The notes under the pieces: model-generated
Told to the model about the DNA's origin: nothing
The model's input: only the letters and a program-made list of their open reading frames with translations
Database searches by the model: none
Position numbers and translations under genes: made by a program
Virus record (IMG/VR): IMGVR_UViG_3300024518_005105
Location: 1 to 23,159 of that record
Length of the DNA: 23,159 bases
Reading direction: 5' to 3' (one strand)
Origin: a virus
Shown: positions 1,253-22,166 of the stretch, in pieces
Position numbering within the stretch: the stretch's first letter is position 1
How the letters are laid out: each line of letters opens with the position of its first letter

Positions 1253-1576
1253 TCACTTGATTCCCAGCATTCTGTCGACCGGGTCAACCGGCTTGGTTAT
1301 GGGCGGGGGCCTGTGCTGGCCCAGGTCAACCTGGACCGATGTTGATTCATAAAGAGTTTGATTTTTTCCGTCGCACCCCTCAAGCGCTGTCCCGCCCCAG
1401 GCCTCCTTGGCCGTGTCAATCGGAGCCCTGTCGCCGGCCATGAAGAAGGTCGGGCTCGAGGGCCGGTACCGGGCCAAGCCCCCGCACCGGGTACAGGACC
1501 GCTCCTGGGGATACTCGGACCGGTACAGTTCCTCGGTCTCGTGGCCTTGGAGACACTTGTACAGGCGTAGGGGCAT
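1253..1576 (-). CDS. Zinc-ribbon protein resembling the FmdB regulatory family
   Basis: The 107-residue product opens with MPLRLYKCLQGHETEEL and continues to RSCTRCGG, followed by a Pro/Ser segment. This matches the layout of FmdB-type N-terminal zinc ribbons (M-P-x-Y-x-C-x2-C-G-H ... C-x2-C-G-G). The second Cys of the first pair is absent: the visible ligands are Cys8, His12, Cys28 and Cys31, so His12 may replace it. The C-terminal 60 residues are polar and unassigned. The ATG at 1576 overlaps the stop of the 1298-residue gene as TGATG. The longer reading to 1666 would lie inside that gene and is rejected. The role in the phage is unknown; small zinc ribbons of this kind recur in phage structural regions. 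Confidence 0.65.
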   Translation of the reverse strand: MPLRLYKCLQGHETEELYRSEYPQERSCTRCGGLARYRPSSPTFFMAGDRAPIDTAKEAWGGTALEGCDGKNQTLYESTSVQVDLGQHRPPPITKPVDPVDRMLGIK

Positions 1577-4500
1577 CAGGGAGTCTCCAAAGGAATCAGG
1601 GATTGTGCCCAGCGATCGTTGAAATCCTTGCCTTCGACCATTTCCTTCATCAGGGCTGGTAGCCAAGAAGCGGCCATTGTCGTGGCCATCTGGTCGATCT
1701 GGAGGATCTCGAGCTCTCTCTTCTGGGCCTCGTCTTCGTTCTTCGGCTCTACGGCTAGCCAGAATTCTCTCTCTTCGCGCATGTCGCTGATCTGTTTCGT
1801 CATGGTATTGAGCTCGCTGAGAAGGAGAAACTCCGGCTTTGCGGAAACAGTATCAAGGTAAACATCCAGATTTTCGGGGTCGTTGCGGATCACCTTAGAC
1901 GCATCTCTTGCGCGCTCGCGTAGGTCGTAGAGATCCGTTACCGGCTGGGTGTCGAATCCATACGGACTAGAGACGAAAGACCGAATCAATCCCCCCAAGA
2001 CGGGGACATCCTTCAGTCCACGACCTGGATCTTCGCTCCGGACCGACTCTCCGAGAAGGCCGATGTCTGCCGCCTGAGACGCCTCTTTTCCTGCCGTGCC
2101 AAGATACCCGTCGATCATGTGCTGTACCAGAATAGGGGAGGGCACAAAGTCGCGCTCCCCGAAGGCTCCAACTGCAAAGCCCGAGACTCTCTTCGCCACC
2201 TCTGACGTGGCCGGTTTGACCTGATACTCCTTCAGCATCCCCTTCAGACGAGTCGGCATGACGTTCCGATCATAGAAAAGCTGCTGATCGAAGACCGCCT
2301 CCGCTAAGGGCTTGAAGACTTGCGGTGTAACCCCCAGCGCCAGCGTCTTCCCTTGGTCCAGGACCGGGGACGCGAAGAGCCCGGGAAACGTCTGATCCAG
2401 GAACCCGTTCTCTAGTTGGTCGAGGGCCTTGGCTCCCTCCAGGGGATTCTCGTTATCCTTCGCCTCGACAAACCGGAGCGCCGTTTCCGGCAGGAGACCA
2501 AAGAGAACGTTGAGTAAGCCTATGGGGCGCGGCACCTTGACGAAAGACCCGTCATCTCTCTTGTAGATGAAGTAGAAGACGTTCTTCTGCCACTCAGAAG
2601 CGTTCTGATACTCGGGGTCGTTGCGATTCTTGAGATATAGGCCGAGAGACGGGACTGTTACCGATGCGAATCCCTTGATCCATGCCGTCCGCGCCCTCTT
2701 CGGGTCGGTCAGCGCCTTGATGACCTGCTCCGTGTCCTTCACGGAAGCATTGAAAAACGGGACGTTGTCGTTGACAGTCCTCGTGACCGTCCCCGCACGG
2801 TGGAACGGTAAAGCAACTTGGCCCGCCTCTTTGGCTGATCTCAGAACGCCCTTCCCTGCGTCTCGAGCCTTCACAAACTCGGGGAACCGCGTAGACACCT
2901 CTCCCATATCGTTGAGCACCTGGAATGGGTAGAGAGGGTTGTGAGCCCAGCGATCGAGCTGCCGACGCATGGGACGTTTCGCTCCTTCGTTCAACGCTCT
3001 CTCCAGGGAGACTCGATCTCGGATGAGCTTTTGGTCCAGGCCCGTCAGCGTGGCTCCGAACACTCCAGACCGGCGAAACTCGTCGGCGTAACCCTGGACG
3101 ACCTGCTTCCGCGCTGCGCCACTCCCCGCTACCCCGCCCGCCAAATCGAAGGCCACATCCATCGTGGAGACGAACGGAACAAAATTATTCTGCGAGATCA
3201 CGAAGGCATTCTGGGGATCACGGATTAGCTGCCTGACTCCAAAACTTCCCGTCGAAAGGGCTCCGGCTCTCAGGGTCCTGGTGAAGCTCGCCGACAGACG
3301 AAGAGCCGCATTCATCTGCTGAGGCGTCATCGACGCAGTTGCCTTCATTAAATCTTCCGGTACGTCCCATATCTCCCGAACCATCTCTCCGGGCCTCTTC
3401 GGGTCTGGTCGGTTGACCGCCATCCCGCCTTCAGTATCCAGGTCTCCGCGGCGAAACATCTCCACGGCTTCGTTACCTGGGTTCTCCGAGCTTAGCTTCT
3501 TCAGCTCTTCTGAGGGGAGCTTGGGGAGCTCCTTAGTGGTCGTACCCCTCCGCTTCATAAGCGGGAAGTCGTCGGGTGATGCCTCGAAGGCGTCAACCAA
3601 TGAGGACTTTACTAGTTGCTTCCTGACCTGGATATTGATCTGGGTCTGGTTCGCAAAGGCCTGAGTCACCGGGCTTCCGATCGGGTTGTCCGGGTCCAGG
3701 CCGCCGTTTCTGAGCGCCTTGACCAAAGACTGATTTACAGACCTACCGCTGGCCGTGGCCTCGAGCTCGTGGGCAAGATGGGCGAACGGCACGTAGTCTG
3801 GGCCGCGGGCCAACATCCTGTCGCCCGCATTCTTGGATATAAGACCGCCCTTCACCATCTGGACGACCTGGCCGTGGGTCACGTCTCGGACATCCTCGGC
3901 CGCTCGGTCCATCCGGTTGAGTCCATTCGCGTCCAAGGAGTCCGCATACTTTGCGGCGAGATCGATTTCGTACTTCTCGGCCCTGGCCACGACGCTCTCG
4001 TCAATCTTGAAGTTGTAGGCGAGAGCTTTCTTATCCCCGGCCTCTCTCGCGGCCCTATGAAGCCCGGCGTTGGCCAGCAAGCGCCTGTAGGCCATATGGT
4101 AGTCGAGATCCTCCCGGAACTCGGCAGTCGTACGCTGAGGATTGCTGAAAATCCCGTGAGCGGTCTTCACGCGTTGCATGGCAATCGTGCCGTCTGGCTG
4201 CTTCTTGGGGATCAAGGTGTGAACGAACCCCTCTTCGACGTTTGACCACATCTCCGAGGGCTTCGTAATACCGTTGTCGACGGTTCTCGCAGCAAGGGTG
4301 AACTGAGAATTCGTGAGTTCGATCGACTCCGCAAGTTCTGGCATCCCAAGCTGTCTCATCTTGCGCCCGACTCTTTCGGTCGGTTCTGTACGATCGATCA
4401 CATCGTCGATGGCTCGCTTGTACTGTTTGTCCACCCACTCCTTGAAGTCTTCCCCTGTCGTGTCCCGAAACTCGAGCTCCCCTCCGACCTCGAGACCTCC

Positions 4501-5472
4501 CGTCTTGGCTGCTGCTCGCTTGGCTGCGGCCTTCGACAAAACTCGGCCTGCAACATTCCCGGCAATGCTGAGCGTGGCTCCTAGTCCAGCAAAGAGCCCT
4601 ACTGCTCCTGGTCGCCGTTCTTTGCCAAGTGCCTGGGCCTCTCCAAACCCAATTACGGAGGCCTCTAGGGCGCCGGCCAGACCGGAAGCCGCAGTACTCC
4701 GGGCACGGTCAATCAACCGAGGCACAGCCCTGAGAGACTCGCGCCCTGCAGACGCCCCGAACAGTTTGCCAAAAAAGGCTCCGATCTTTGCGGAAGGCAT
4801 AAGAGGGATAATCGAGGCGGCGACCAGCATCGCATTCGAGGAAATCTTCTTGCCCGTAGACCTGACTTCCTCTCCAGTATCCGGATCTATCGTTGTCTCG
4901 AATTCGTGCTTGATTGCTAAGTAGTTCTCCTGCATCCTCTTCCGGGTGCCTTTTGGAGCTATCCCCATGGCCTCAATCCAACCAATGACTGGGCCACCTA
5001 TCGCCTCAGCGCCCACGGCACGGTTGAACTCCTTTAGACCAATATCCTCTCTTCTGATTCGTACGGTCCTCACTTCCCCGGACGAGTTCGGTAGACCGAG
5101 AGGGTCTCGTAAAATATCCATGTACTCGAAGTCTTGGTCTGCCTGAGCAGCCGGACGATCGGAAGCACGATCTTTTTCATTCACCTGGTTAGCCGCATTG
5201 TCTAGATTGAAGAACGCAGCCTGGACAGGGTCAACACCTTGTTCTCGCAAGTGGCTGGAGTCAGGAACGGGCGGAAGATCAGGAGGTTGGGCCGCAGACC
5301 GGATAGAAGCACGGTTTTCCTCTGTCCTCTGCCGTTTCAGCACAGCCTCGTCAAGGCGCGAGAAGATGTCGTCTGCCGGGCCCTCGGCCTGGCCTTGGAG
5401 ATCCTTCTCGAGTCGGCTAAAGATCGACTCAATTGGATCTGGGACCCCGCCTCTACGGAGAGGGTCCGTCAT
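1576..5472 (-). CDS. Large LPD38-type polyvalent / ejection-type virion protein
   Basis: The product has 1298 residues. About residues 715-1000 match the character of large polyvalent protein-associated domain 38: a TGSFGVRQLIRDPQNAFVIS block (741-760), NNFVPFV (762-768), then NDNVPFFNASVKDTEQ (901-916) and NRNDPEYQNASEWQKNVF (949-966). This domain is known from giant virion-borne proteins of podoviruses thought to enter the cell with the DNA. The N-terminus carries a short repeated motif (SIFSRLEKDL, DIFSRLDEAV, AAFFNLDNAA at about 16-25, 35-44, 85-94) in a disordered, charged region. Two hydrophobic stretches lie near residues 213-240 and 289-312. No lysozyme or transglycosylase motif is seen. 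It is coupled by TAATG to the upstream coiled-coil gene. Function is inferred from domain resemblance and context. Confidence 0.8.
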   Translation of the reverse strand: MTDPLRRGGVPDPIESIFSRLEKDLQGQAEGPADDIFSRLDEAVLKRQRTEENRASIRSAAQPPDLPPVPDSSHLREQGVDPVQAAFFNLDNAANQVNEKDRASDRPAAQADQDFEYMDILRDPLGLPNSSGEVRTVRIRREDIGLKEFNRAVGAEAIGGPVIGWIEAMGIAPKGTRKRMQENYLAIKHEFETTIDPDTGEEVRSTGKKISSNAMLVAASIIPLMPSAKIGAFFGKLFGASAGRESLRAVPRLIDRARSTAASGLAGALEASVIGFGEAQALGKERRPGAVGLFAGLGATLSIAGNVAGRVLSKAAAKRAAAKTGGLEVGGELEFRDTTGEDFKEWVDKQYKRAIDDVIDRTEPTERVGRKMRQLGMPELAESIELTNSQFTLAARTVDNGITKPSEMWSNVEEGFVHTLIPKKQPDGTIAMQRVKTAHGIFSNPQRTTAEFREDLDYHMAYRRLLANAGLHRAAREAGDKKALAYNFKIDESVVARAEKYEIDLAAKYADSLDANGLNRMDRAAEDVRDVTHGQVVQMVKGGLISKNAGDRMLARGPDYVPFAHLAHELEATASGRSVNQSLVKALRNGGLDPDNPIGSPVTQAFANQTQINIQVRKQLVKSSLVDAFEASPDDFPLMKRRGTTTKELPKLPSEELKKLSSENPGNEAVEMFRRGDLDTEGGMAVNRPDPKRPGEMVREIWDVPEDLMKATASMTPQQMNAALRLSASFTRTLRAGALSTGSFGVRQLIRDPQNAFVISQNNFVPFVSTMDVAFDLAGGVAGSGAARKQVVQGYADEFRRSGVFGATLTGLDQKLIRDRVSLERALNEGAKRPMRRQLDRWAHNPLYPFQVLNDMGEVSTRFPEFVKARDAGKGVLRSAKEAGQVALPFHRAGTVTRTVNDNVPFFNASVKDTEQVIKALTDPKRARTAWIKGFASVTVPSLGLYLKNRNDPEYQNASEWQKNVFYFIYKRDDGSFVKVPRPIGLLNVLFGLLPETALRFVEAKDNENPLEGAKALDQLENGFLDQTFPGLFASPVLDQGKTLALGVTPQVFKPLAEAVFDQQLFYDRNVMPTRLKGMLKEYQVKPATSEVAKRVSGFAVGAFGERDFVPSPILVQHMIDGYLGTAGKEASQAADIGLLGESVRSEDPGRGLKDVPVLGGLIRSFVSSPYGFDTQPVTDLYDLRERARDASKVIRNDPENLDVYLDTVSAKPEFLLLSELNTMTKQISDMREEREFWLAVEPKNEDEAQKRELEILQIDQMATTMAASWLPALMKEMVEGKDFNDRWAQSLIPLETP

Positions 5473-6500
5473 TACTCGAGCGCCAGATTGAAGGAGGGTG
5501 AACCGTCAGGACCAAACCCCGTCAGAACAGTAAGACGTGCTTTGAGACTTTCTTTCTGGTCCAAGGTGAGCGTGGGCCTCCTGGCAAGATTATCGAAAAT
5601 AACCTTCGCAACAGAGGGGTCTTCCTGGATCTGGTCGGCAAGTTCTTTCGCGGCCGATTCCAACTCGGGAGGGAGGGTATTGGCGCTGCCGTCGCGCACG
5701 GTCGCCCTCGCGCCTCCTAGGTTACGATAGAACTGTCGATCCTCTTGGAGCTCATCTCGTCGCTTCTCGAGCCCCCCCAAGAAGGCCTCGCCCTCCGGGG
5801 AAGACTGGAGGATCTTCCTCTTCCTCTCTCCTTCTAAGGAACCACGCTCGGGGAGCTGCCGTTCGATCTCTCGGAGCTCTCCTTCCACCGACGTTAGCTG
5901 TTGAGCCGGGGTTAAGGAACGGTCGTTTCTTGCCCGCTCTTGTCTTCTGGCAATCGCAACTCTCTCGCGCTCTAGACCAAGGCGCTCTACCTCTCTTTGT
6001 TTAGCACCAGATGCCTGCTCTAGCGCCGTATTCTCAAGAGACCTTGCCCTCTCGAATTCGCTCTCCTGGGCATCCCTTCGAAGACTGTCCCTAAGCCGCT
6101 TCTTCTCTGGGCCAGGACGTAGGGAGTTCAATCGATCCAGCTCCTCCCTAGATCCACCAGACCCCAGGAACAGACCTTCAAACTCCTTGTTCGATTCCTG
6201 CCTCTCGACGCGACGAGCGCGCTTCTGCGCTCTATTTTCTCGTTCGATCTGATCTGTCTCGGCCCGGCCCTCTCTCTTGACCCTGGCCGCCTCCTGGCGG
6301 TCGTCTCTGGCAATCTGAGCCGCTAATACTCTTTCCTGCGAGGCAAAGCGCTCTTTAGACCGGACACCCTCCACCTGGAGTTGTGCCGCTAGACGGCGCT
6401 CGTCCTCGTCCCTTCTGAGCTGCTCGGCCAGCTCCAATTCCTGGACCCGGACAGCCCCGCCTGTAGCCCCGGCGAGGATCGAGGCCAGGTTCAAGCCCAT
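5472..6500 (-). CDS. Coiled-coil probable internal virion protein
   Basis: The 342-residue product begins with a small Gly/Ala-rich hydrophobic stretch (LASILAGATGGAV, residues 5-17). It then runs as one long, highly charged helix rich in Arg, Glu and Gln to about residue 260 (for example QIERENRAQKRARRVERQ), and ends in a more ordinary segment with helical and beta-like parts. No enzyme motif is visible. Long charged helices behind a small apolar start, in a group placed between tail fibre and a giant LPD38 protein, resemble podovirus internal core proteins that are ejected with DNA. Start and stop overlap both neighbours by one base (TAATG), so it is tightly coupled. Assignment is by context. 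Confidence 0.6.
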   Translation of the reverse strand: MGLNLASILAGATGGAVRVQELELAEQLRRDEDERRLAAQLQVEGVRSKERFASQERVLAAQIARDDRQEAARVKREGRAETDQIERENRAQKRARRVERQESNKEFEGLFLGSGGSREELDRLNSLRPGPEKKRLRDSLRRDAQESEFERARSLENTALEQASGAKQREVERLGLERERVAIARRQERARNDRSLTPAQQLTSVEGELREIERQLPERGSLEGERKRKILQSSPEGEAFLGGLEKRRDELQEDRQFYRNLGGARATVRDGSANTLPPELESAAKELADQIQEDPSVAKVIFDNLARRPTLTLDQKESLKARLTVLTGFGPDGSPSFNLALE

Positions 6501-7597
6501 TACCCGAGCCCCAGGGCCGGTGTGTCGGGGCCTATTCTGCCGCGGAGGTCGTCTCGCATCGCCTGGAGCACCTCTGGAGGTAGGCCTAGGGGATTTCCCG
6601 CCGAGGCTCCTGGACCAAAGCCAGGCTGGCTGTTCAAGAAGAAGCTCTGGATGAACTCCTGGAGCGATCGGTCAAACTCGAACTGTTCTCTCGAGAGATC
6701 CTGGCCCTGCTGGCCGAGGTCAATGTTTCCGAGGCCCAGGAGCCTGGCAATCTCGTTCCGCTCGTCACCCTGACGGATATCCGCGTCTCCCAGGAGCCGC
6801 TGTAGGTCGAGCTGCCCCGTTCCCAGCCTGTCTCGCAGGTTAAGGTCATCCCGGCGAAGGCCCACGTCCTCGAGGCCCAGGAGCCGTCTTAGGGCCAGTT
6901 CCTCCTGGCCTAGTTCCAGTTGCCCTGACCCGAGCCGGTCTCGCAAGGCCAAGTCATCTCGGCGTAGGCCAATCTCTTCTAGGCCGAGGAGCTTCTGGAG
7001 GGCCAGCTGGTTATCGGAGATTGTGAGCTGGGCCTGGGTTGCCGCTCGAGCTGCTCCAGCTTGGCGTCTCGATATGAGATCACGCAACTGCTGGTCGTTA
7101 ATGCCCAAGGCCCGCGCCACGGCCTGCTGGGACTCGGTAAGCTCGAGGCCCCGCTGTACTCCGAAGCCCTGTATCCCTTGGGCTGTTTTCTGAAGGCCAA
7201 GCTGCTCGTTTGCCGTCTCGAGATCGTTAAGGCCTCGGATGCTCGCGTTAGCAAACGTGCGCTCGAGGTTCTCCACGTCCCTGACCTGTTGACCTGAGCC
7301 GAAAAGTCCGCGGGCACCAAAGTCCTCCGTCCTGCGAATCGCAGCGTCCCGAAACCCGGTTTTGGCATCCTGGCGAATCAGGTTCCTGGAAGCATCGATA
7401 TTCGAGAAGCCCTCGCCCTGGAGGAGCTTGAGAATCGCCGCCTTGACCGCGTCCGAAACCTCCGGGTCGCCCTGGGCTACCTCGGGGACCGGAACGCCCT
7501 GGAAACCACCTTTCGGTTTAGGCTGGACCGGGGGCGGAACCTGGGCCTGGAGGGCTGGGCCGAAGGGATCTACAGGCTCTCTTGCGGGAAGTACCAT
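6500..7597 (-). CDS. Repeat-containing probable internal virion protein
   Basis: The 365-residue product has a Pro-rich start (PPPVQPKPKG, 21-30) and a helical middle rich in Gln and Leu (50-195). Two tandem 36-residue repeats follow (198-233 and 234-269) sharing the pattern LLGLExxGLRRDDLxLRDRL, then a decayed third unit with LLGLGNIDLGQQGQDL (286-301). The C-terminus is Gly/Pro-rich. Such Leu/Gln/Arg repeats suggest an extended helical rod or solenoid. It sits 3 bases after the 208-residue gene and is coupled to the next gene by TAATG. I know no enzymatic family for it, and a role in the ejected core is inference from its neighbours. Confidence 0.6.
   Translation of the reverse strand: MVLPAREPVDPFGPALQAQVPPPVQPKPKGGFQGVPVPEVAQGDPEVSDAVKAAILKLLQGEGFSNIDASRNLIRQDAKTGFRDAAIRRTEDFGARGLFGSGQQVRDVENLERTFANASIRGLNDLETANEQLGLQKTAQGIQGFGVQRGLELTESQQAVARALGINDQQLRDLISRRQAGAARAATQAQLTISDNQLALQKLLGLEEIGLRRDDLALRDRLGSGQLELGQEELALRRLLGLEDVGLRRDDLNLRDRLGTGQLDLQRLLGDADIRQGDERNEIARLLGLGNIDLGQQGQDLSREQFEFDRSLQEFIQSFFLNSQPGFGPGASAGNPLGLPPEVLQAMRDDLRGRIGPDTPALGLG
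6791..7006 (-). repeat. Two tandem 108-base coding repeats
   Basis: Two in-frame 108-base units (7006-6899 and 6898-6791, read on the minus strand) encode 36-residue repeats sharing LLGLE, GLRRDDL, LRDRLG and GQL at the same spacing. The DNA copies differ at many third-codon positions, so the duplication is old and held by protein selection rather than recent. A third, weaker copy follows downstream with an 11-residue insert. Confidence 0.75.
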
Positions 7598-7600
7598 CGA

Positions 7601-8227
7601 CTAAGTCGTCCTGATGGGCCCTGTAAGGCCTAAGCCGAAGCCGCCATCGTCTCTTCTGTTGGAAGCAAGGCCGAGGCCTATCGGAGTCGACCCGGCCCTG
7701 CCGGCCCGGTTAAAGGCCCCGGACTGCAACAGAAGCTCCACGATGTTCCCGGCTGTCTGGCCGAAGCCCTGAGCCCGGATCTCCGAATTGCGCTGAGCCT
7801 GGTTTGCCGCGTTCGTGACCGAGCTTGTCCCGGTCGGGATCAAACCCAGGAGAGCCTGGAGGTCTCCCGTTTCCTTGATGGCGTCGAAGTCGATGTTCCC
7901 GAAGATGTCGGCGGCATTCGACTCAGTCCCGATGCCCCGTGGACCCCGGAAGCCCAGACCCTCGGTTGAATCGAAGATGCCCCGTGCCGCGGAGGGCTGC
8001 CTGGACAGGGCTGCTAGTCTTTGCTGGTGTTGCAGGGCTGCTTTGAGAAGGGCCGACTGGTCACGGCCAACCTGAGACTGGGTTTTTAGGGCCTCCTTCT
8101 CGGAACTGGAAGGACCGCCAAGTAGGCTTCCGAGGATGGATGAGCCCAATCCAATGCCGAGAGCCGCAAGGGGGTTTGCGAACATCATCTCAGGGATTAG
8201 CGAAGGGTCAAGAAGGCTCAGGTCCAT
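7601..8227 (-). CDS. Small internal virion-like protein with apolar N-terminal segment
   Basis: The 208-residue product has an N-terminal apolar Gly/Ala/Leu segment at about 15-38 (core NPLAALGIGLGSSILGSLLG). A Gln-rich helix (52-75), a Gly-rich linker and a helical region with many Asn, Ala and Gln residues follow, and a Gly-rich tail ends the protein. An apolar, membrane-active-looking N-terminus followed by helices is typical of podovirus proteins that form the ejected channel, such as the T7 gp14 position, though no sequence identity is claimed. ATG at 8227 is supported by CGGAG 7 bases upstream, giving a 20-base overlap with the GNAT gene. It is the first of three probable core genes in a row. 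Confidence 0.55.
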   Translation of the reverse strand: MDLSLLDPSLIPEMMFANPLAALGIGLGSSILGSLLGGPSSSEKEALKTQSQVGRDQSALLKAALQHQQRLAALSRQPSAARGIFDSTEGLGFRGPRGIGTESNAADIFGNIDFDAIKETGDLQALLGLIPTGTSSVTNAANQAQRNSEIRAQGFGQTAGNIVELLLQSGAFNRAGRAGSTPIGLGLASNRRDDGGFGLGLTGPIRTT

Positions 8228-8786
8228 CTGTTATCTCCGTTTCTTTCTGCATCTTAACCCAATCGGGCCTTAACAACCGCAATGCAACCGTGTTATAGGA
8301 GTCCCCGTCGACCCATAGCGCCCTTTGGTGTATCCCCTCCTGGGTAAAGCCGTTTTCCCTTAATAGAGTAATGAAGCCCTTGCGCGTAGAGAGCACCTCG
8401 GCCTGGACACGGAAAATGGCCCGGTCCGTCTCGGAGAACAGGATCTCCAACAGGTCCCGAAGGGCTACCCTGGCCGAGCCCTCCCGGGCCTGTAGATCCT
8501 CTATCATCAGATCGAACTGGACCGCACGCCTGGATTCCCCGAGGTAACTGGTGACGAAGTACCCGACTGGATTCGAGCCCTCGTAGATCCCCAGTAGGGC
8601 GACGGACGGGTCCCCGGCCTTGGCCCTCTCGAGGAGCTCCCCGAAGGCCTGGGTCGCGGCCAGGACGCTCCGGGCACCCTTTCCGAAGCCTCTCTTGCGG
8701 TTCTGGGTCTCGTCTCTAAACCAGCCCTGCTCCACGGCCCTACGGCGCAGAGAGTCGGTAACTGGGGCTAGAGTGACTTCGGTCAT
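8208..8786 (-). CDS. GNAT-family N-acetyltransferase-like protein
   Basis: The 192-residue product has the outline of a GNAT (RimJ/RimL-like) acetyltransferase. There is a central beta strand before a motif-A-like turn (about residues 99-105, LQAREGSA, matching R-x-x-G-x-A), and a C-terminal block RENGFTQEGIHQRALWVDGD with the usual N-x-G-F, E-G and W-V-D-G spacing, then TVALRLLRPDW. Known members use acetyl-CoA to modify an amine on a protein or small molecule; the substrate here is unknown. It sits directly before the probable internal virion genes, so it may be a virion part that keeps only the fold, or it may modify a phage or host protein. The ATG at 8786 is chosen because a longer reading to 8888 would run into the preceding gene; its ribosome binding site is weak. 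Confidence 0.7.
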   Translation of the reverse strand: MTEVTLAPVTDSLRRRAVEQGWFRDETQNRKRGFGKGARSVLAATQAFGELLERAKAGDPSVALLGIYEGSNPVGYFVTSYLGESRRAVQFDLMIEDLQAREGSARVALRDLLEILFSETDRAIFRVQAEVLSTRKGFITLLRENGFTQEGIHQRALWVDGDSYNTVALRLLRPDWVKMQKETEITDGPEPS

Positions 8787-8832: not shown

Positions 8833-9183
8833 CTAGTTCCTCTTGGGGGCGATGACGGTTCTTTCCAAGATGATGATAGAAGTTTCACGGCCAGGCTCTC
8901 TCTTGATTTTCTTCACAGCCGAGGCGCGAAACATCAGCAGAGAGGGGCCTTCAAGCGTCAACAAAACGCCGTACATCCTCCGACCACCGAAGGAGAACAC
9001 GCCTAGTCTGCCTGTGATGCGAGCCCGAACCCCCTCACGATTCGAGCTATTCATAGATACAGTGACCGACTGCCCAACAATCTCCTCGAGTCTAGATTCG
9101 GGCACGTCGGCAAGAGCGAACGATGCACCGAAGAGAAGACAGCAGAACACCGCTGACACAGTTTTTTTAGCTCTCATCGACAT
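8833..9183 (-). CDS. Exported small protein with Sec signal peptide, unknown function
   Basis: The 116-residue product starts with a classic Sec signal: MSMRAKK, a hydrophobic core (VSAVFCCLLFGASF, about 9-22) and an A-L-A cleavage motif (23-25) before Asp26. The mature part of about 91 residues is rich in beta-type sequence (GQSVTVSM, RARITGRLGVFSFGG, RMYGVLLTLEGPSLLMF), which could form a small beta barrel, perhaps SH3/Sm-like; that is a guess. GAGG lies 4 bases before ATG 9183 and 10 before ATG 9177. The gene overlaps the end of the tail-fibre gene by 17 bases. A secreted product encoded among virion genes could act in the periplasm during entry, lysis or superinfection exclusion; the sequence does not say which. 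Confidence 0.65.
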   Translation of the reverse strand: MSMRAKKTVSAVFCCLLFGASFALADVPESRLEEIVGQSVTVSMNSSNREGVRARITGRLGVFSFGGRRMYGVLLTLEGPSLLMFRASAVKKIKREPGRETSIIILERTVIAPKRN

Positions 9184-11430: not shown

Positions 11431-13251
11431 CTAAGCCATGAGAGCGCCCGTGCCCGTCGGAATGTCCTGGTATCCCATCGTGACGCTGTAGAGCGTCAGC
11501 GGATTGGTGGAGTTCTGGCCCGAGTCCGAGGTGATTGTCACTTCGGCTTCATGGCCGATCGCGCCGACGTTGAACCGGGACAATAGGCGGGTCTTGGACC
11601 CCGTATTGTTGACTGGAGAGGCCGATATCGTCGTCACCCTCTGCCCGTCTATGTCCACAAACAGGTCTATATTCCTGACGGCGGAAACGTTCTTGAAATG
11701 AACGTCCAGGTAAAGGAACCGGCGCAGCGTTTGGGATGAGCCGAAGGGGTACAAAAACAAGGCGTGGTCCTGGGCCAGGGTCGCGGTCAGGTCCGCGGTA
11801 TAGATCTGCTTGGTGTCGTGGACGCCGACATCGCCTCTCGAGCCGCCACAAAAGAACGTCTCCGAGTTCCCGAAATCATCCACCATATAGCAACGAAAAC
11901 CGGTCTTCATGGCTCCGGCGAACCGTTTCCTCTGTACGTCGTAGAAGATCGTCGCATTACGAAGGGAGATCCAGACCCGTCCATTCCCCGGCTGGTGCCC
12001 CATCGAGATATCCCATAGGCCGGATTCGTCGAAGTCTCCGGTCCCGATTAGGTTCTGCACATCATCTTCGATCAGCTCTGAGATCCTGCGCACCCGATTT
12101 GCGTTGTAAAGGTAGATCGCGCCGTTGAAATAGAAGATGATCCCCGCCGAGGTGTAGGTCAAGGAGTTAATTCCGGGGGTCCCGATTGACCGGGTCGGTT
12201 GGTCTGAAGGCACGAGCTCCATGACCTCGAATTCCCTGGGCTCTCGGCCGAAGATCTTGTATAGATGCCCCTTCTTGAAGAACAGGATGCCGTCCGAGTC
12301 CCTGGCGATAGCCGTTCCTACGTCGCCATCGTTGTGACCCACGGTCAATCGGTTGCCCCCGGCCCACGTTGCGAACGACTCAGGCTGCCCGATATCCGAC
12401 CAATAGAGGTCGTTACCGTCCATCGCATAGACGCGATTGAAATAGGTGATACAGGAGGTCGTTCCGGTGGGCGGTACATCGCCATTGGCAAACGGCGGAT
12501 CGCCCAGCCTGGCGTCGGGCACATCGTCAGTGAACGTTGTCGAAGACGATGTGTCGATCTGGCCGACGTAGAACGGATCTACGAAGTTGGCGTAGGTGCG
12601 GTAGATCTTGAAGACCTTGGAGGCGAAGTCGGCGTGGCTCAAGACGACATTGATTCGGGTCCCATCCCCGGCGTCGATTTCTCCGAAGGTGGCCGAGAGG
12701 GCCGACTCTGTCGTCGCGGAGAGTTCGGCCAGGAAGTACTTAACGACACCCTTGACGCTGTTCTCCCCGCCCGCGCTCGTCGCCGTCGAGGCGTTCGTGA
12801 CCGACTGCCGGGTGAGCCCTATGTTTGAGACGGTGTTGTCCGAAATCTTGACCTTGAAGGGCGTATCCGTGCCGTTGAAGCAAAGGATGTACTCCGTACC
12901 ACCCGAATCCCCCATGACGCAATAGGAGAGCCTCTTAGATGCGGTGAGCCCGGTCTTCAGAGGCGTTCCGTTAACCGAGCCGTTGGCGTTCAGAATGTTA
13001 AGCTCGGTGTCGCTCTGGACCACCCGCAAAACCGTGCCTGTCGAGTTCTCGGCCCTGTACATCGAAGAGATGTCCAGGAGCTCGGTCGCTGTCGAGGTCC
13101 GGCCAGGGGCTGAAGTCAGAGCCCCGATCTCGGTCGGGGATTCCCACCAACCCTCGGGCAATCGGAAGGCGTCGATGTCCCGGGCCCGGGATATGTCCGA
13201 GACCCAGCCTGCCCGGAAGGTACGGGAGTCTTCTTTTGTTCTGAGCGCCAT
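11431..13251 (-). CDS. Tail nozzle / tail tubular protein B-like structural protein
   Basis: The 606-residue product is beta-rich throughout. It carries blade-like blocks seen in podovirus tail nozzle proteins (T7 gp12 / P22 gp10 position): FNRVYAMDGNDLYWSDIGQP (271-290), AIARDSDGILFFKKGHLYKI (314-333), then AGIIFYFNGAIYLYNANRVR (369-388) and WDISMGHQPGNGRVWISLRN (413-432). Such proteins form the hexameric end of the short tail. It follows the adaptor-like gene (TGATG overlap) and precedes the fibre gene, the expected place. No membrane segment or signal is seen. Functional class is inferred from position and beta-propeller-like character, not from a catalytic motif. Confidence 0.7.
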   Translation of the reverse strand: MALRTKEDSRTFRAGWVSDISRARDIDAFRLPEGWWESPTEIGALTSAPGRTSTATELLDISSMYRAENSTGTVLRVVQSDTELNILNANGSVNGTPLKTGLTASKRLSYCVMGDSGGTEYILCFNGTDTPFKVKISDNTVSNIGLTRQSVTNASTATSAGGENSVKGVVKYFLAELSATTESALSATFGEIDAGDGTRINVVLSHADFASKVFKIYRTYANFVDPFYVGQIDTSSSTTFTDDVPDARLGDPPFANGDVPPTGTTSCITYFNRVYAMDGNDLYWSDIGQPESFATWAGGNRLTVGHNDGDVGTAIARDSDGILFFKKGHLYKIFGREPREFEVMELVPSDQPTRSIGTPGINSLTYTSAGIIFYFNGAIYLYNANRVRRISELIEDDVQNLIGTGDFDESGLWDISMGHQPGNGRVWISLRNATIFYDVQRKRFAGAMKTGFRCYMVDDFGNSETFFCGGSRGDVGVHDTKQIYTADLTATLAQDHALFLYPFGSSQTLRRFLYLDVHFKNVSAVRNIDLFVDIDGQRVTTISASPVNNTGSKTRLLSRFNVGAIGHEAEVTITSDSGQNSTNPLTLYSVTMGYQDIPTGTGALMA

Positions 13252-14246
13252 CAGGGCCTCGAGTAGAAGCCCGTCCGTGTCGCAAAATCGAAGCTGTTGA
13301 AGTTCCAGGCCCGAGAGACGACGGAGTGCTCCAGATCAACCATCGGAGCCTCGGCATGCTCCACCCACTTTTGTCGGCCTATGGCCACGTCCTGGGCTAG
13401 CCAGATCGGAACCTCCATGTCTCTTGAGGTTCGGAGCCGTACTGCGGCGAGATAGGCGATTAGGCGATGGAAGGTCGGTGGCATGATAGGCACGTCGGAG
13501 TTGGCCGAAAGTGCCGTTAATGACTGTTCGTAGGTTAATGAGATGTTGTTCGTACCGGTGACGGCGGGAGGTGAGAGTATTTTGATCCTTTCTTGACCAC
13601 CCTTGCGCTCGTAAATATAAAATTCGGTCGAGGTGATCGAGCCCTCTCTCCATCCCCTTTCCGCGACTTGGATCGTCGAGGGGGTAAGGTAGGTCCAGGT
13701 CGCCGTCGAATCAGCGGTAAGATCCTTTCCTAGAAGTTCTACCGCCACCTGAATAATCTTCCCGTCTACGTTGCCGGGAGTTGTCTCGATCCGGTAATTG
13801 GGTTGGTCCTTGACCGTGTCCAGGGTCGTGGATCGCTCAACGCCCCAGCCCGAATTGATCGACTTGGCGTCCCACCAGAGCTCCTCGTAGGCCAGGTTGA
13901 TCTCGTCCTTGACCTCCTGGGACGGAAATAGGTTCCCTGCCGATGAGGTGGATTGACCAGCCCTTAGCTTAGCCAAGGCCTGGAGATTTGGGATGCCATC
14001 GACCGAGTAGGCATCGCTGGTGTCCCAGTTGTTGTCTGTCCCATCCTTTAGCGCACCATGCGTGATGACGGTCTCGGAATCAACGGACGTAACGAGCGCC
14101 TCACTGGAGTCGGTCGTATTCTTGATCGTCAACCCCGCCACGACCCCGTCCGACACAAAGGTAGCCCCCGTGTCGGTCAGAGTCGTGGCAGGGCGAGAGT
14201 CCGTGGAGGTGATGGTCCCGGTTAATGCGATGGGCCCAAATTGCAT
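13251..14246 (-). CDS. Head-tail adaptor / tail tubular protein A-like with extra N-terminal beta module
   Basis: The 331-residue product has two parts. Residues about 5-82 form a Thr/Asp/Val-rich beta module (TLTDTGATFVSDGVVAGLTI, then ALVTSVDSETVITHGALKDG) of a type that recurs in environmental phage proteins. Residues 85-331 resemble podovirus adaptors: LQALAKLRAG (88-97), EVKDEINLAYEELWWDAKSI (111-130), a beta domain (150-240) and a helix with PTFHRLIAYLAAVRLRTSRD (257-276). Adaptors form the ring below the portal to which the nozzle binds. Its place, after the head genes and coupled by TGATG to the nozzle-like gene, supports this. The exact family (T7 gp11-like or P22 gp4-like) cannot be fixed by eye. 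Confidence 0.65.
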   Translation of the reverse strand: MQFGPIALTGTITSTDSRPATTLTDTGATFVSDGVVAGLTIKNTTDSSEALVTSVDSETVITHGALKDGTDNNWDTSDAYSVDGIPNLQALAKLRAGQSTSSAGNLFPSQEVKDEINLAYEELWWDAKSINSGWGVERSTTLDTVKDQPNYRIETTPGNVDGKIIQVAVELLGKDLTADSTATWTYLTPSTIQVAERGWREGSITSTEFYIYERKGGQERIKILSPPAVTGTNNISLTYEQSLTALSANSDVPIMPPTFHRLIAYLAAVRLRTSRDMEVPIWLAQDVAIGRQKWVEHAEAPMVDLEHSVVSRAWNFNSFDFATRTGFYSRP

Positions 14247-15740: not shown

Positions 15741-16880
15741 CTAGGCAGCGTTGGTGAGGAGCGAGTGCGTCTTTTCCAGCGAGCGCCAGAGACCCATCTC
15801 TGAGAGCCACTCGTCGGTCTGCGCATCGTCGCCCGGCGTCCCGACATCGGTACGCAACTTGGTGTCCCGGCCCCGGAGGAAGCGGACGCCCATGTTGTCC
15901 ATGTCGACGACAACGGCGTACCCACCGTAGGTATCGCCCTCGAGCTTGTTGTGCGTGATGAGATTGAGCTCACCGTGCGTTGTCCTGAGCCTCGAAGTGG
16001 TGATCCCGAAGGTCACACTGGACTCCATGCGCTCGGTGTTGGAGAAGGCCTCCTGGTCGATCGAGGTCACGACACCGCGGGCCGCAAACATGACCTTTTT
16101 CTTGCGGCCGTACCGAAACATGGTCTCGGTGTCCGAGGAGAAGGTGTTGAAGTTCCACGTCCCACCGTAGTCGGTGGAGTTGGTCGAGATGAACGGGATG
16201 ATTCCGCCTGTCGAGCGTCGAGTCGTGTCGCCCGAGGTGATCTGCGCCTGCTCCCCGAAGAGATTGGCCAGTTCGATCTGGACGGCATGCATGATGCCCG
16301 AGGTCCGGTGCAAGCGAGCCATCTCCTTGCCACCGTAGAGTTCTGACGCGGCCAGGGTTCCGACGAGGGCGACCGGCCAGCGGAAGATCTCCGTGTAGTT
16401 CGTGACCTCTGTCACGAGCGTTGACTTCGCCGCCTCGATCGAGGCTCCTTCGAGAGCCGCCGGACCGATGATCGTCAACTGATCGTTGTCGAGAATCGCC
16501 GCCGCGGCTGTCGAGCCGTTCGAGCGAACGACCGTCAGTGCATTGGTTGAAATCGACGTGACGAGGAACGTCTCGTTTGTCCGTTGGACCTTGCCGAGCG
16601 AGTTCGGAAACCAATAGGTCCCGTTATCAACGTCGATCGTGGTCGAGGACGCAGTCTGAGCGCCGTTGGCCCGATCGAGATTCGGGATGAGGTCATCCTC
16701 GTGGACATCGAAAACCGGCTGGTGTACAGCCTTGGTCGACGCCATCCGAGAGAGGAGTGTGAGGGGGGCCTTGTCCGGCTCGAGATCCATGATCTTCGAG
16801 TGAACATCTTTGACTACGCGAGCAGCCAAGACACCGTCGTTACCGCCGATGCCGCGTTGTCCGTCTACGACTGTTGGCAT
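15741..16880 (-). CDS. Major capsid protein, SU10 / DUF5309 type
   Basis: The 379-residue product matches the SU10-type major capsid family (DUF5309). The beta-rich insert at about 80-146 carries TFLVTSISTNALTVVRSNGS (104-123), TAAAAILDNDQLTIIGPA (124-141) and EGA, the same order as in that family. The C-terminal signature is FLRGRDTKLRTD then DEWLSEMGLW (334-365). An HK97-like fold is known for the family; it forms the icosahedral shell. The gene follows the probable scaffold gene by 26 bases and has an AAAGGAGG ribosome binding site, fitting high expression. Length is near the family norm and there is no obvious prohead protease gene or long cleaved N-terminus. Confidence 0.88.
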   Translation of the reverse strand: MPTVVDGQRGIGGNDGVLAARVVKDVHSKIMDLEPDKAPLTLLSRMASTKAVHQPVFDVHEDDLIPNLDRANGAQTASSTTIDVDNGTYWFPNSLGKVQRTNETFLVTSISTNALTVVRSNGSTAAAAILDNDQLTIIGPAALEGASIEAAKSTLVTEVTNYTEIFRWPVALVGTLAASELYGGKEMARLHRTSGIMHAVQIELANLFGEQAQITSGDTTRRSTGGIIPFISTNSTDYGGTWNFNTFSSDTETMFRYGRKKKVMFAARGVVTSIDQEAFSNTERMESSVTFGITTSRLRTTHGELNLITHNKLEGDTYGGYAVVVDMDNMGVRFLRGRDTKLRTDVGTPGDDAQTDEWLSEMGLWRSLEKTHSLLTNAA

Positions 16881-17953: not shown

Positions 17954-18201
17954 GCGGCTTCCTCGATCTCGAGGCGCTCAGCGATTGTTATGAAATCGGC
18001 TTGCAAGATACCCTCTAAGGCTGTTAACTCAATTAACGCGCCTTGCTTTCGACCCACCATACCAGAGTTGTTAGGGTCAACGTCAAGCGAGACCTCTGTT
18101 AACAGTTGCCGCTGCCTTATTGCGAGGTATTCCAATAAGGCCTGGCCAGGGTCGCCGTGCTTAACATGGGTTATCAGTTCGGTGCGTTCGTCGTCGGTCA
18201 T
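17950..18201 (-). CDS. Small helical protein between portal and scaffold genes
   Basis: The 83-residue product is mostly helical, with a short N-terminal helix (TDDERTELITHV), a middle helix (QALLEYLAIRQRQLLTEV), a break with DPNNSG, and a C-terminal helix (ALIELTALEGILQADFITIAERLEIEEA). It has no membrane span. Small helical proteins at this position occur in many podovirus genomes, often of unknown role. It shares one base with the portal gene (TAATG) and four with the scaffold gene (ATGA), so its translation is tied to both. It might help portal or scaffold incorporation. I do not recognise a family. Confidence 0.65.
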   Translation of the reverse strand: MTDDERTELITHVKHGDPGQALLEYLAIRQRQLLTEVSLDVDPNNSGMVGRKQGALIELTALEGILQADFITIAERLEIEEAA

Positions 18202-20141
18202 TAGTTCGCCGGACCGCCGCCCTGTTGTGCGCCCTGGGTTGCCGCTAGTTGGTCGCCCGAGGTTCGGGCATTCTGGCCAGGCGGCTGCGTCGACTCCTCC
18301 TGTTCGGCCTGTTCGGCTTCGCGCTCTCGCTGTATCGAGGCCTGGGCCTCGGCCGAGTTAAAGAGGCCCTCGGGGTTCTCGGAGATGCCGGTGCCTCGGA
18401 AGTACTCGACCCATGCGGCCTGGACCGCGGGATGGTCAGGCGGTAGGTTCTGGACCAGAGTCGGTAGGATTCGCTCGGCTCGCTGGAGCCTTACCTGGGC
18501 ATTCCCCGGCTCGACCGAGGCCAGATCAATCGTTATGTCCAGGTCTAGGCCCGACTTGGAGACGAGCTCTTCCGGGGAGATCCTGTCAAACTCGGGCGGT
18601 ACCGAAGTGAGCTGCCCGGTCTCCGGGTCAACCTCCTGTTCGTTAAAGCTGTCTCCTAAGATGCGCACCAGGCGCTCGTCGTCGATATTCAGCTCGTTCA
18701 GACGAATCAGCTGGCGACCCATCGGGGTTAGAGTCTGGTGGCCCAAGATGCGAAACATGAGCGAGGCCCGGGAGCCGGAGGCCTCGGCTAGAAGATTGGC
18801 CTCGGTTGCCGTGGCTCCCGGTGTCCCGATGCCCTGGGCCGTATCGGTCAGGCCGACTCGCTCGGCCCAGTCCTTGATCTCGTCGGTCTCGCGGTGAGCC
18901 GAAAAGGAGACGGGCTGATTCGGGAGAGCCGCGATGTCGCCGTGGTCCCGCACGGGCAGGATACCCCCCGGTCGAAAACGCATATTCTTAGAATTGAGAC
19001 CCGAGCCCCTTATCACGGTCCACATGTTATGGACCGAGGACAGGAGATTGTCGAGGCGAATCGAATGGAGGAGTGAGAGCTCGACACCTAGAGACATGAG
19101 GACTTCCGGTAAGGAGAGTCCGTAGATCGAATCTGGATCGGGAATCGGGGTGAAGCGGACGAATGGCAGATGCCCGGTTTCGTTCCAGTCGTTGCGAAGC
19201 GGCTTCTTGAGTGTGCCTCGCAACTCTTCGACGACGACGATGACCTTCTCTCTCCACCAGCACTCGAGCAGATGAAACTCTCTCTTGTAGGGATCGGGAC
19301 TCGGGGTGCCGCGGTCGTCGAAGCGATCCTCGGTCATCTCCCGCAGGGTCTCTTGGTTGCCCGTGTGCCCGACCGGGTTTGTACCTTCGCGCAGGAGTTT
19401 TTCGAGCTCGGCTACCGACTCGGGATCGTAGAGAGGTTTCCCGCCTGTTTTGCGAGCCGCCTTGACGGCCTTGAGCGAAGAGCGCGCCCGGTGGACGATG
19501 AAGTCGCATTCCTCTTCCGAGACGACGTCCGGGTCGGGGAATATCTGGTCGACCGGGGGCAGGTCAATCCACGTCCCGTCCATCGTTGTGGCCCGGGGGT
19601 TGATACGGACCTGGGACTGTGTCCTGGGTCGCCCGGTCTGCGGGTCGATAGCCGGTTGCCCGGTGAAGGGGTCGACGACGGGGGCGAAGAACCGCTCGGC
19701 CCTTGTCTCGGTCGTCTTGCGATAGGAGGTCTTGATCCAGGCCGTGCCGTAGATCTCTGCTGATTTCACGAATTCGACGATGCGCAAAACCAGGTTGAGA
19801 CGTTGCCAGTCGAGCTTTAAGAGACCCCGATGGACGGTCGCTCGCCTCGCGTCTTCCTGGGAGCGCGGCCAGACCTCGATCTTCGGCGTCTGGGCCGCGA
19901 GCCTTGGTAAGAGGGCCTCGACGTGGGTAAAGATGAGGGGGACGACGATCCGGGAAACCAGGTTGTCGTCCTTGACAAGGTCGATAACAGAGCGGTAGGC
20001 CTTCTTCCACTCCTTCCATTGGTCGCGCTTTGGATCGACGAGTAAACGCCGGGAGCGGTCGTAGGAATCGAAGGCTAGTTTCGCGGCCTTCTCGTCCGGG
20101 GGTAAAGAGGACGGGTCTATATAAGTGGCCGCGTCTGCCAT
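18201..20141 (-). CDS. Portal protein (podovirus type)
   Basis: The 646-residue product has the order expected of a portal. Residues 1-130 are a helical N-terminal part with ending NLVSRIVVPLIFTHVEALLP (60-79) and a DWQRLNLVLRIVEFVKSAEIYG helix region. A beta-rich wing follows with DPFTGQPAI and DPQTGRPRT turns (157-173) and WIDLPPVDQIFPDP (191-204). The central core and long-helix crown start contains HLPFVRFTPIPDPDSIYGLS (324-343), VELSLLHSIRLDNL (353-366) and TEANLLAEASGSRASLMFRI (446-465). The last 45 residues are Gln/Gly/Ala-rich low complexity. Portals form the dodecameric DNA gate. The layout is closest to P22-like portals in my judgement. It sits one base after terL overlap (TAATG), in the usual terminase-portal-scaffold-capsid order. 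Confidence 0.88.
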   Translation of the reverse strand: MADAATYIDPSSLPPDEKAAKLAFDSYDRSRRLLVDPKRDQWKEWKKAYRSVIDLVKDDNLVSRIVVPLIFTHVEALLPRLAAQTPKIEVWPRSQEDARRATVHRGLLKLDWQRLNLVLRIVEFVKSAEIYGTAWIKTSYRKTTETRAERFFAPVVDPFTGQPAIDPQTGRPRTQSQVRINPRATTMDGTWIDLPPVDQIFPDPDVVSEEECDFIVHRARSSLKAVKAARKTGGKPLYDPESVAELEKLLREGTNPVGHTGNQETLREMTEDRFDDRGTPSPDPYKREFHLLECWWREKVIVVVEELRGTLKKPLRNDWNETGHLPFVRFTPIPDPDSIYGLSLPEVLMSLGVELSLLHSIRLDNLLSSVHNMWTVIRGSGLNSKNMRFRPGGILPVRDHGDIAALPNQPVSFSAHRETDEIKDWAERVGLTDTAQGIGTPGATATEANLLAEASGSRASLMFRILGHQTLTPMGRQLIRLNELNIDDERLVRILGDSFNEQEVDPETGQLTSVPPEFDRISPEELVSKSGLDLDITIDLASVEPGNAQVRLQRAERILPTLVQNLPPDHPAVQAAWVEYFRGTGISENPEGLFNSAEAQASIQREREAEQAEQEESTQPPGQNARTSGDQLAATQGAQQGGGPAN

Positions 20142-21649
20142 TACTCTAATCCGGCAATCCTGATGCTGGAGCGGTTCGCCTTAACTCGCCGCTTGGGATA
20201 ACCATATCTCACGTTATCATCTTCGAGCATCGGGTTCATATCACCCATTTCCGAGGCCGGGATATGAGCCGGTCGACCGGCGCATAAGTACCGCAGGGCG
20301 TCGGCCATGTCGTCCTTATACTTATGCGGCCTCTCGGGGGCTGATAAGGACGAGGTCTCGGAGACTTCCGCGTAGCGATAGGACTGAATCGCCTTTATGA
20401 GCTCCTTGCATTCGCTCGAGACAAACATCTTCGGGTGGTTCGGGCTCGAGGACAGGGTCGAGAGGAGGTAGGCCGAGACCAGGTCACACCCGGATTTGAC
20501 CGCGTCAATCGCAATGCGAGCCCAGATGCCCTGGTCCTGGTAGGCGTCCCAGGCCGAAAGATGGCTGTCGGGGTTCTTGCGTTTTGAATCGGGAGAGATC
20601 CACGAGTCGACGATCGACTCCTGTGTTTTCGAGCGGATCTCCGCGGCGTGTCCTTTGTGGTCCTTGTCGTCGCCTAGATAGGCGCGGTATATATAGAGGT
20701 CATTTCTCGGCGGCACGGCCCGTCCCCAGATGCAGGCCGTGGGATGTCGCCAGCCGATGTCGATGCCCCGGTAATTGGACCCGGAACCGGGGATGTCTCC
20801 GGGCCTTACAACATGACCTCCCCGGCCTGGGTGTTTTGGATCGTAGATCCGATCTCGGAACATGTCCCAGATGAGCCCGGTGAAGTGCTCGAAGCTCGCT
20901 TCGTATTCTCTTCGGAAGTCTGCCTCCGGGGTGACTCTTCTGATTTGATCGATTTCTTCATGGGACATAAACGGGTTGTCCTCCGACTTCATCGTAATGC
21001 CATTCCAGCCCTCTTCTCTCAGGTCTCTTTCTAGGCGGCGCTGGAAATAGTCGTAGAACCAGTTCATGCCCTGGGGAGTGGACGCGAAGATAGCCTTTCC
21101 TCTTCGATCCGCGAGACGCGCCCTGACCTGCCGATTCCAAACCGACTCGAGTAGGCGCGCAGCCTCGTCGAGAAGCGCCAGGTCGATTTGGTCTCCCAGG
21201 AGAGACTCGGGGTTTTTCGCAGATTTCCCGAGAATTACAGAGCCCCACTTCATTCGGATAATGCGGCGATCCCGAACAAAGGATTTCTCGACGATGTTGT
21301 CTCCGTAGATCTTGTCTTCGACAACCCACTTCCAGATGATGGAGAATGTTCTGTCGGTCAGTTCGTAATTCGGAGCGACCACCCATATTCTTTTCTTGGG
21401 AATCCCAAGAAGGGCGGTGCCCTCGGCCGCGGCACCCAATGTTTTCCCTGAGCGTACTCCCAGGGCAGCGACGAAAAACCTCCAGTCCGACCAATGAAGT
21501 TCCTGTTGAGCGACGTTGGGAGGCCGGACACCGTCACCCTCGACGCCGTCGAGATAAGAGACGACGCCTGAACCGGTTTCTACCTGGAGCCGGGAGAAGA
21601 CATTCCGCTTCCAGGCGTTATACGCCTCTGGATCGCGGTGGTCGAGCAC
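20141..21649 (-). CDS. terL: Terminase large subunit
   Basis: The 502-residue product is the packaging ATPase/nuclease. Visible motifs are a Walker A variant GVRSGKT (64-70), Walker B LALLDEA (157-163) with catalytic Glu, and the coupling motif STP (190-192, in FASTPQGMNW). A nuclease domain follows with GIDIGW (Asp297) and a C-terminal KDDMADAL (Asp446-Asp450). These fit the general TerL fold, which drives DNA into the prohead and cuts it. The frame is open to 21730, but that would overlap the small terminase gene by 80 bases. The GTG at 21649, right after the TAG stop, is the likelier start. It ends in a TAATG overlap with the portal gene. Confidence 0.93.
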   Translation of the reverse strand: MLDHRDPEAYNAWKRNVFSRLQVETGSGVVSYLDGVEGDGVRPPNVAQQELHWSDWRFFVAALGVRSGKTLGAAAEGTALLGIPKKRIWVVAPNYELTDRTFSIIWKWVVEDKIYGDNIVEKSFVRDRRIIRMKWGSVILGKSAKNPESLLGDQIDLALLDEAARLLESVWNRQVRARLADRRGKAIFASTPQGMNWFYDYFQRRLERDLREEGWNGITMKSEDNPFMSHEEIDQIRRVTPEADFRREYEASFEHFTGLIWDMFRDRIYDPKHPGRGGHVVRPGDIPGSGSNYRGIDIGWRHPTACIWGRAVPPRNDLYIYRAYLGDDKDHKGHAAEIRSKTQESIVDSWISPDSKRKNPDSHLSAWDAYQDQGIWARIAIDAVKSGCDLVSAYLLSTLSSSPNHPKMFVSSECKELIKAIQSYRYAEVSETSSLSAPERPHKYKDDMADALRYLCAGRPAHIPASEMGDMNPMLEDDNVRYGYPKRRVKANRSSIRIAGLE

Positions 21650-21650
21650 C

Positions 21651-22166
21651 CTAGTTGGGCTCGTCGTCCGAGAGGATTGCCTCTTCGACCTCTTCGGAGA
21701 GTTTGCGCTTCTTGACCTCGGCCTTGGCAAACTCGTCCCAGGGAGAGCGCGCCTCCACTGTCCTGGCCTCGTCGTAGGGCTCGGATTCTTTGCGGAGCTC
21801 GCAAAGGAGGCCGCGGGCCTCCGAGGAGAGTCGTGTTAGTGCGTTCACCGTGATGCCGTCTTCGGACGACTGCTTCTCGCGGATCATCTCGAGGCAACTC
21901 TTGAAGAGATCCGAGAGAGCCTGGATACGATCCGGTCGCTGCGTCAGCAGGGTGCCCTCGGGATTTTCACGAAGGGCGTCAACGTAGACTCTCAGGTCGC
22001 CCTGGAAGAGGTCTGACTGTCGATAGTTATTGAACTCCGTATGGTTGTAGGCGTAGGCTTCCGGTCGCTCGTTCTGGAACCTGCGATAGGCCCGAGCGTA
22101 GGAGGACCCCTCTACATAGCACCGGGTCAGATGCAGTCGTTCCTCGGCGGTGAGTTGATTGAGCAT
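21651..22166 (-). CDS. terS: Probable terminase small subunit
   Basis: The 171-residue product is helical, with a probable DNA-binding N-terminus (LTAEERLHLTRCYVEGSSYA, residues 5-24, then a second helix AYRRFQNERPEA), a long middle helix (about 75-105) and an acidic C-terminus. The length, helical content and place directly before terL fit a small terminase, which recognises the packaging site. I see no unmistakable family signature, so the call leans on context. ATG 22166 has GGAGG 7 bases upstream and begins one base after the stop of the basic repeat gene. The longer open frame to 22358 lies in that gene and is rejected. Confidence 0.72.
   Translation of the reverse strand: MLNQLTAEERLHLTRCYVEGSSYARAYRRFQNERPEAYAYNHTEFNNYRQSDLFQGDLRVYVDALRENPEGTLLTQRPDRIQALSDLFKSCLEMIREKQSSEDGITVNALTRLSSEARGLLCELRKESEPYDEARTVEARSPWDEFAKAEVKKRKLSEEVEEAILSDDEPN

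Follow-up and report, generated by a model that had tools for sequence, protein, structure and literature searches.

The four genes at positions 1576 to 8227 of the window, i.e., of the whole 23,159-base virus record that was analysed and that is probably a fragment of a genome, probably encode the ejection (internal) proteins of an SU10/HTVC010P-type short-tailed phage, with a giant LPD38 protein in the position of T7 gp16. The cassette is a distant but otherwise ordinary representative of a widespread gene set by which many short-tailed phages, mostly marine, appear to pass their DNA through the cell envelope. Position, size and build suggest that its products would work in the manner of T7 gp14, gp15 and gp16; for the giant, homology to a family standing in the same position points the same way.

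The window is the late region of a short-tailed phage, an SU10/HTVC010P-like podophage, in which all genes from the terminase through the cassette lie on the minus strand. The head part begins with the terminase large subunit (20141..21730; phrog_2, E 3.3e-36; Terminase_6N/6C) and continues with an SU10-type portal protein (18201..20141; PF23899, E 1.2e-26), an 83-aa protein, a probable scaffold, an SU10-type major capsid protein (15741..16880; PF17236, E 6.8e-33) and small proteins. The tail part consists of an SU10-type adaptor resembling tail tubular protein A (13251..14246; PF24175, E 1e-8), a nozzle resembling tail tubular protein B (11431..13251), a tail fibre, a 116-aa protein and a GNAT-like protein, after which come the cassette, a zinc-ribbon-like protein and a holin-like 90-aa ORF. 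The three SU10-type Pfam matches (PF17236, PF23899 and PF24175) are all above cut-off. The nozzle, assigned from its place after the adaptor, matches phrog_511 (E 1.3e-10), which bears the family name internal virion protein; the scaffold and tail fibre were assigned from position and appearance alone. Searches of the viral_contigs set with the nozzle, capsid, giant and 365-aa protein gave no close relatives, and the genome_contigs scan gave two loci in all, neither of them close.

Several other features of the window may be recorded. The tail-fibre gene contains a 111-bp tandem repeat (window 10146-10378; 2.1 copies, 96% match) that encodes a repeated TAYEANADTNAFDDAEQTKLAGIE-type motif. The 116-aa protein between the tail fibre and the GNAT-like gene (8833-9183, minus strand) is basic and has a signal-peptide-like N-terminus. 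An ORF rich in Lys, Ala and Pro (22168-23157, minus strand) lies upstream of the terminase genes; it contains a KPKPKPKP run and is open at the end of the record. The 90-aa protein (247-519, minus strand) has a C-terminal hydrophobic segment and a weak match to the holin family phrog_689 (E 0.029).

The first-pass annotation described genes of 208, 365, 342 and 1298 residues joined by tiny gaps or TAATG overlaps, and they do lie in this way, all on the minus strand. The 208-aa gene (7601..8227) is separated by a 3-nt gap from the 365-aa gene (6500..7597), which shares a TAATG overlap at 6500 with the 342-aa gene (5472..6500); the latter is joined in the same manner, at 5472, to the gene of the giant (1576..5472). 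The chain extends beyond these four genes in both directions. Downstream, a fifth gene (1253..1576, minus strand) starts within a TGATG overlap with the giant at 1576 and encodes the 107-aa zinc-ribbon-like protein (Zn_ribbon_8, E 0.0029, below cut-off). Upstream lies the GNAT-like gene (8208..8786, minus strand, with the ATG at 8786 as the assumed start), which has 20 nt in common with the 208-aa gene. It stands in the gp13/acetyltransferase position, and its matches to Pfam Acetyltransf_8 (E 0.0085, below cut-off) and to the acetyltransferases of the relatives (hhalign probability 23) are weak. The pelagiphage relatives have tail fibre genes in place of the zinc-ribbon-like protein. In 200 shuffles of the region the longest stop-free run was 326 codons; the ORFs of 342, 365 and 1298 codons therefore exceed any chance run. 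Length alone gives the 208-aa ORF no such protection, but it sits in the same packed operon.

The identification of the giant as an LPD38 protein is confirmed by PF18857, which matches residues 952-1158 with E 2.8e-30 and 106 bits against a curated cut-off of 27; no other Pfam domain was found in the protein. The domain lies inside a shared C-terminal module at approximately residues 480-1298 (1579..4035, minus strand). BLAST aligns this module with the pelagiphage giants over residues 480-1269 at 25% identity (E about 1e-43), giving a shared region of approximately residues 480-1270, and both BLAST and the alignments A2 and A6 show that conservation spans some 700 residues around LPD38. Invariant residues such as R751/D752 and F906, N908 and A909 are seen in the module alignments A1, A2 and A6. 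Hydrophobic segments of the giant occupy residues 210-234, 290-308, 764-782 and 976-1002. The AlphaFold2 model of the module (25 alignment rows) is mainly helical with a few short strands and is of moderate confidence (pLDDT 62, pTM 0.51). Foldseek found no match for it in the PDB; in BFVD its matches were giant proteins of phages, many with the name large polyvalent protein associated domain, together with RelA/SpoT, type I methylase and LT_GEWL proteins. The N-terminal half of the giant is predicted to be helical, with a pLDDT of 47 that is too poor for interpretation or a fold search. Near the N-terminus (5200-5430, minus strand; residues 14-91) an IFSRLE/IFSRLD/AFFNLD motif occurs three times, which differs from the LxxAGxxxxEI repeat of the relatives' giants.

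A tblastn search of phage genomes with the giant returned 151 records. Query coverage was highest in Pelagibacter phages, followed by Bacillus phage Page with its relatives and by Vibrio/Thalassomonas phages. The module is common to the HTVC010P-type pelagiphages, Bacillus phage Page, BA3, Vibrio phages and PTXU04, whose gp25 (2197 aa, with LPD38) shares a part of it with the window at E 1.3e-20. Searching the viral contigs with the module alignment gave at least 473 relatives; 72 complete giants with a median length of 1250 aa were present among the 80 loci kept, and LPD38 was found in all 25 representatives scanned. The giant of the window shares about 25% identity with its best matches, and nothing closer appeared among the matches listed; it can therefore be regarded as a distant branch. 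A contig of Paenibacillus senegalensis JC66 (L103, 9001-10716) also carries a relative of the module, possibly in a prophage.

The gene order around these giants is conserved. In pelagiphages, the giant comes after tail tubular protein A, tail tubular protein B, an acetyltransferase, an internal virion protein (IVP) and a protein of approximately 590 aa, and published work calls the pelagiphage genes gp14/15/16-like. An acetyltransferase- or gp13-sized gene followed by IVP-sized, middle-sized and giant genes was found in 30 of the 40 viral-contig loci with three or more upstream genes, neighbouring genes mostly overlapping by 1 or 4 nt; this count was made by gene size, with gene identities verified for subsets. 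Of 14 IVPs encoded upstream of a giant, 12 belong to phrog_418 "internal virion protein", and at one locus (L041) the IVP gene is preceded by a match to phrog_308, the family that contains T7 gp13. The window fills the same slots with proteins of 208, 365 plus 342, and 1298 aa, with two genes in the middle slot, a weak GNAT match and homology limited to the giant. Other gene sets precede the giant at the loci L023, L042, L075 and L089, so a split or replaced middle component is not unique to the window. The homology of the giant, synteny with the internal-virion genes of pelagiphages and the SU10-type adaptor and nozzle upstream support the proposal of an ejection cassette.

The three smaller proteins have the build ascribed to them in the first-pass annotation. 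The apolar N-terminal stretch of the 208-aa protein covers residues 10-38. The protein read as a repeat rod has a 36-residue period over residues 151-310 of its 365, with a self-identity of 31% against 11% in shuffles, a level reached in none of 2000 shuffles. The 342-aa protein is probably a coiled coil, judged by the composition of residues 21-220 (Arg/Glu-rich and low in Pro and Gly). It resembles in build PTXU04 gp24 and a gene of Vibrio phage 1.232.O, each located directly upstream of an LPD38 giant, and hhalign with either counterpart was not significant. The 208-aa protein matches neither a Pfam family above cut-off nor any PHROG, phrog_418 included, and reaches an hhalign probability of 1.2 against the IVP profile of the relatives (A4). 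The 365- and 342-aa proteins reach 0.1 each against the profile of the ~590-aa middle protein (A3), and the 365-aa protein found no relatives in the phages, viral_contigs or fetched loci. Its HTH matches (E 0.004-0.017, all below cut-off) were discounted since they fall on the start of the periodic region, and an "ARGxxxSG" likeness to P22 gp7-type proteins and SU10 gp22 was lost on profile comparison. Nothing significant was obtained when the three proteins were compared with T7 gp14/gp15, P22 gp7/gp20 and SU10 gp21-23, or with the neighbours of the giants in BA3, PTXU04, L089, L023 and L042. The roles of these proteins rest on position.

The lack of a visible transglycosylase led the first-pass annotation to the possibility of a distinct type of ejectosome that has no muralytic domain of its own. 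The lack itself holds for the cassette and for the window: the transglycosylase (SLT) domain of the T7 gp16 type is present in neither the giant nor the window, and the search beyond the cassette found no M15_3 or phage lysozyme domain in the 23-kb window either. The novelty of such a type is not supported, a missing transglycosylase being the norm of the LPD38 family. SLT was found in 0 of the 25 LPD38 giants scanned. Among 28 records searched together it was confined to SU10 and the L042 record, where it lies approximately 3 kb after the giant; in a separate search of Page it was found in gp19, encoded directly before the giant. In JC1, SLT is fused in the same protein as LPD38 (PMC9144972). 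P22 and Sf6 gp16 are likewise without a transglycosylase domain (PMC8954989). A muralytic domain that is separate from the giant or absent is therefore a known arrangement. Among gp16 homologues of other phages, that of JSF28, a T7-like phage, is a shorter protein whose match to T7 gp16 begins only at residue 185, and that of Escherichia phage PE3-1 (L096, 129-4016) starts RNNNPGNI... where T7 has the transglycosylase. It could be supposed that the phage crosses peptidoglycan without any virion enzyme, as would suit both the domain searches of the window and the complete HTVC010P-type genomes, which show no SLT and, of such enzymes, only an M15 peptidase encoded several kb away from the cassette. 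This is quite improbable, however: the enzyme is encoded separately in Page, in the L042 record and in SU10 (gp20) and in fused form in JC1, profiles may miss a divergent enzyme, and the N-terminal half of the giant is poorly modelled. Absence from the virus as a whole does not follow from the window, because the latter is a fragment and a part of the genome is missing.

Two further explanations concern the nature of the proteins. The smaller three might be components of the tail needle, the plug or the head that have only their operon in common with the giant; none of them has a homologue of known function, and needle genes lie close to the ejection genes in SU10 and P22. This is unlikely given the direct TAATG coupling of the 365-aa, 342-aa and giant genes and the placement of all three proteins in the IVP and middle-protein slots of the relatives. 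Somewhat less likely again is that the giant is a polyvalent effector, DarB-like and active in counter-defence, which is injected with the DNA and forms no part of a conduit, the smaller genes helping to package it. By definition LPD38 is a large polyvalent protein associated domain, and injection is predicted for proteins of this sort (PMC5512222); the BFVD matches to RelA/SpoT, type I methylase and LT_GEWL proteins agree with this, as do the methyltransferase (BA3) or Zeta toxin domains (1 of 25) of larger relatives. Nevertheless, the giant of the window has LPD38 as its sole Pfam domain, and at most 2 of the 25 representatives show an additional one. The conserved order beside internal virion proteins suits a structural role, as does the requirement for gp25 in PTXU04, where CRISPRi-ART knockdown strongly lowers plaquing (PMC11879866). 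That knockdown demonstrates essentiality, not location. The effector and structural roles are compatible, LPD38 being then a delivery module.

Some results count against an ejection role. No homology to a known ejection protein could be detected for any of the three smaller proteins, nor to T7 gp16 or SU10 gp24 for the giant, and the model of its module is of moderate confidence and matches nothing in the PDB. Gel-band fingerprinting of PTXU04 particles yielded only gp7, gp10, gp11 and gp12 (PMC6563267), and no virion proteomics was found in the literature for any LPD38 giant. An argument for such a role is that in SU10 the proteins gp20-24, encoded at the corresponding genome position, are present in the virion and gone after genome release (PMC9509320). 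If the cassette proteins are packaged in the same way, the 208-aa apolar protein would exit first after adsorption and extend the nozzle into the outer membrane, in the role of gp14. The repeat rod and the coiled coil would then line or brace a periplasmic conduit (gp15 role), and the giant would move to the inner membrane (gp16-C role), its hydrophobic segments and conserved C-terminal module forming the inner-membrane and DNA-handling end. Cell-wall cutting would not be a task of the cassette proteins; it may be dispensable or performed by the product of a gene outside the sequenced fragment.

LPD38 giants occur in HTVC010P-type pelagiphages, a group counted among the most common phages of the sea, but the giants match no solved structure. 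LPD38 marks a class of proteins in the gp16 slot that is unrelated to gp16 in sequence and links phages of Pelagibacter, Bacillus, Vibrio and E. coli. The connection has perhaps drawn little attention, since only two papers of the library searched name LPD38 together with phages. It can tentatively be suggested that LPD38 proteins are a second large inner-membrane and DNA-translocating class of the gp16 position, one that lacks a fused muralytic domain and is combined with interchangeable, unrelated conduit proteins; the window would be a divergent form with a two-part conduit. PTXU04, growing in E. coli, is a tractable phage for studying how this class delivers DNA. What the window contributes is a distant branch whose set of conduit proteins differs; by itself it establishes no new ejection principle.

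The layout parallels that of the T7 core genes gp13-gp14-gp15-gp16, as had been pointed out, and the sequences are indeed different. The T7 proteins gp14-gp16 have 196, 747 and 1318 aa against 208, 365 plus 342, and 1298 aa in the window, where the middle component is divided between two genes, homology is undetectable and the transglycosylase domain is lacking. Homology of the giant to T7 gp16 was rejected by hhalign of the alignments A2, A6 and A7 with a seven-member gp16 alignment (probability 0.1) and by BLAST, which also rejected P22 gp16. In SU10 (Kuravirus), an ejection block, gp20-gp24, similarly follows the nozzle genes and ends in a giant of 1473 aa, and the capsid, portal and adaptor types are common to both phages. 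Unlike the giant of the window, SU10 gp24 has no LPD38; the two were rejected as homologues (BLAST E 0.2 or worse), and SU10 has a separate transglycosylase, gp20. The LPD38-containing polyvalent giants, i.e., Bacillus phage Page gp20, those of BA3 and Vibrio phages 1.211/1.232, PTXU04 gp25 and JC1 gp69 (LPD38 reported in PMC9144972), are longer, from 1679 to over 4400 aa. Some have methyltransferase or transglycosylase domains upstream of LPD38, unlike the giant of the window, with which they share the LPD38-containing C-terminal module. The HTVC010P-type pelagiphages (Lederberg EXVC029P gp10-gp8, HTVC204P, HTVC034P and Skadi-1) differ from the window in their IVP and ~590-aa middle protein, neither of which has a detectable homologue there; the window has instead two middle proteins and a tail fibre between the nozzle and the GNAT-like gene. 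Their giants of 1229-1254 aa are homologous to that of the window, and in both cases the giant lacks SLT and follows the tail tubular proteins A and B and the acetyltransferase, whose slot is occupied in the window by the weakly matching GNAT-like protein.
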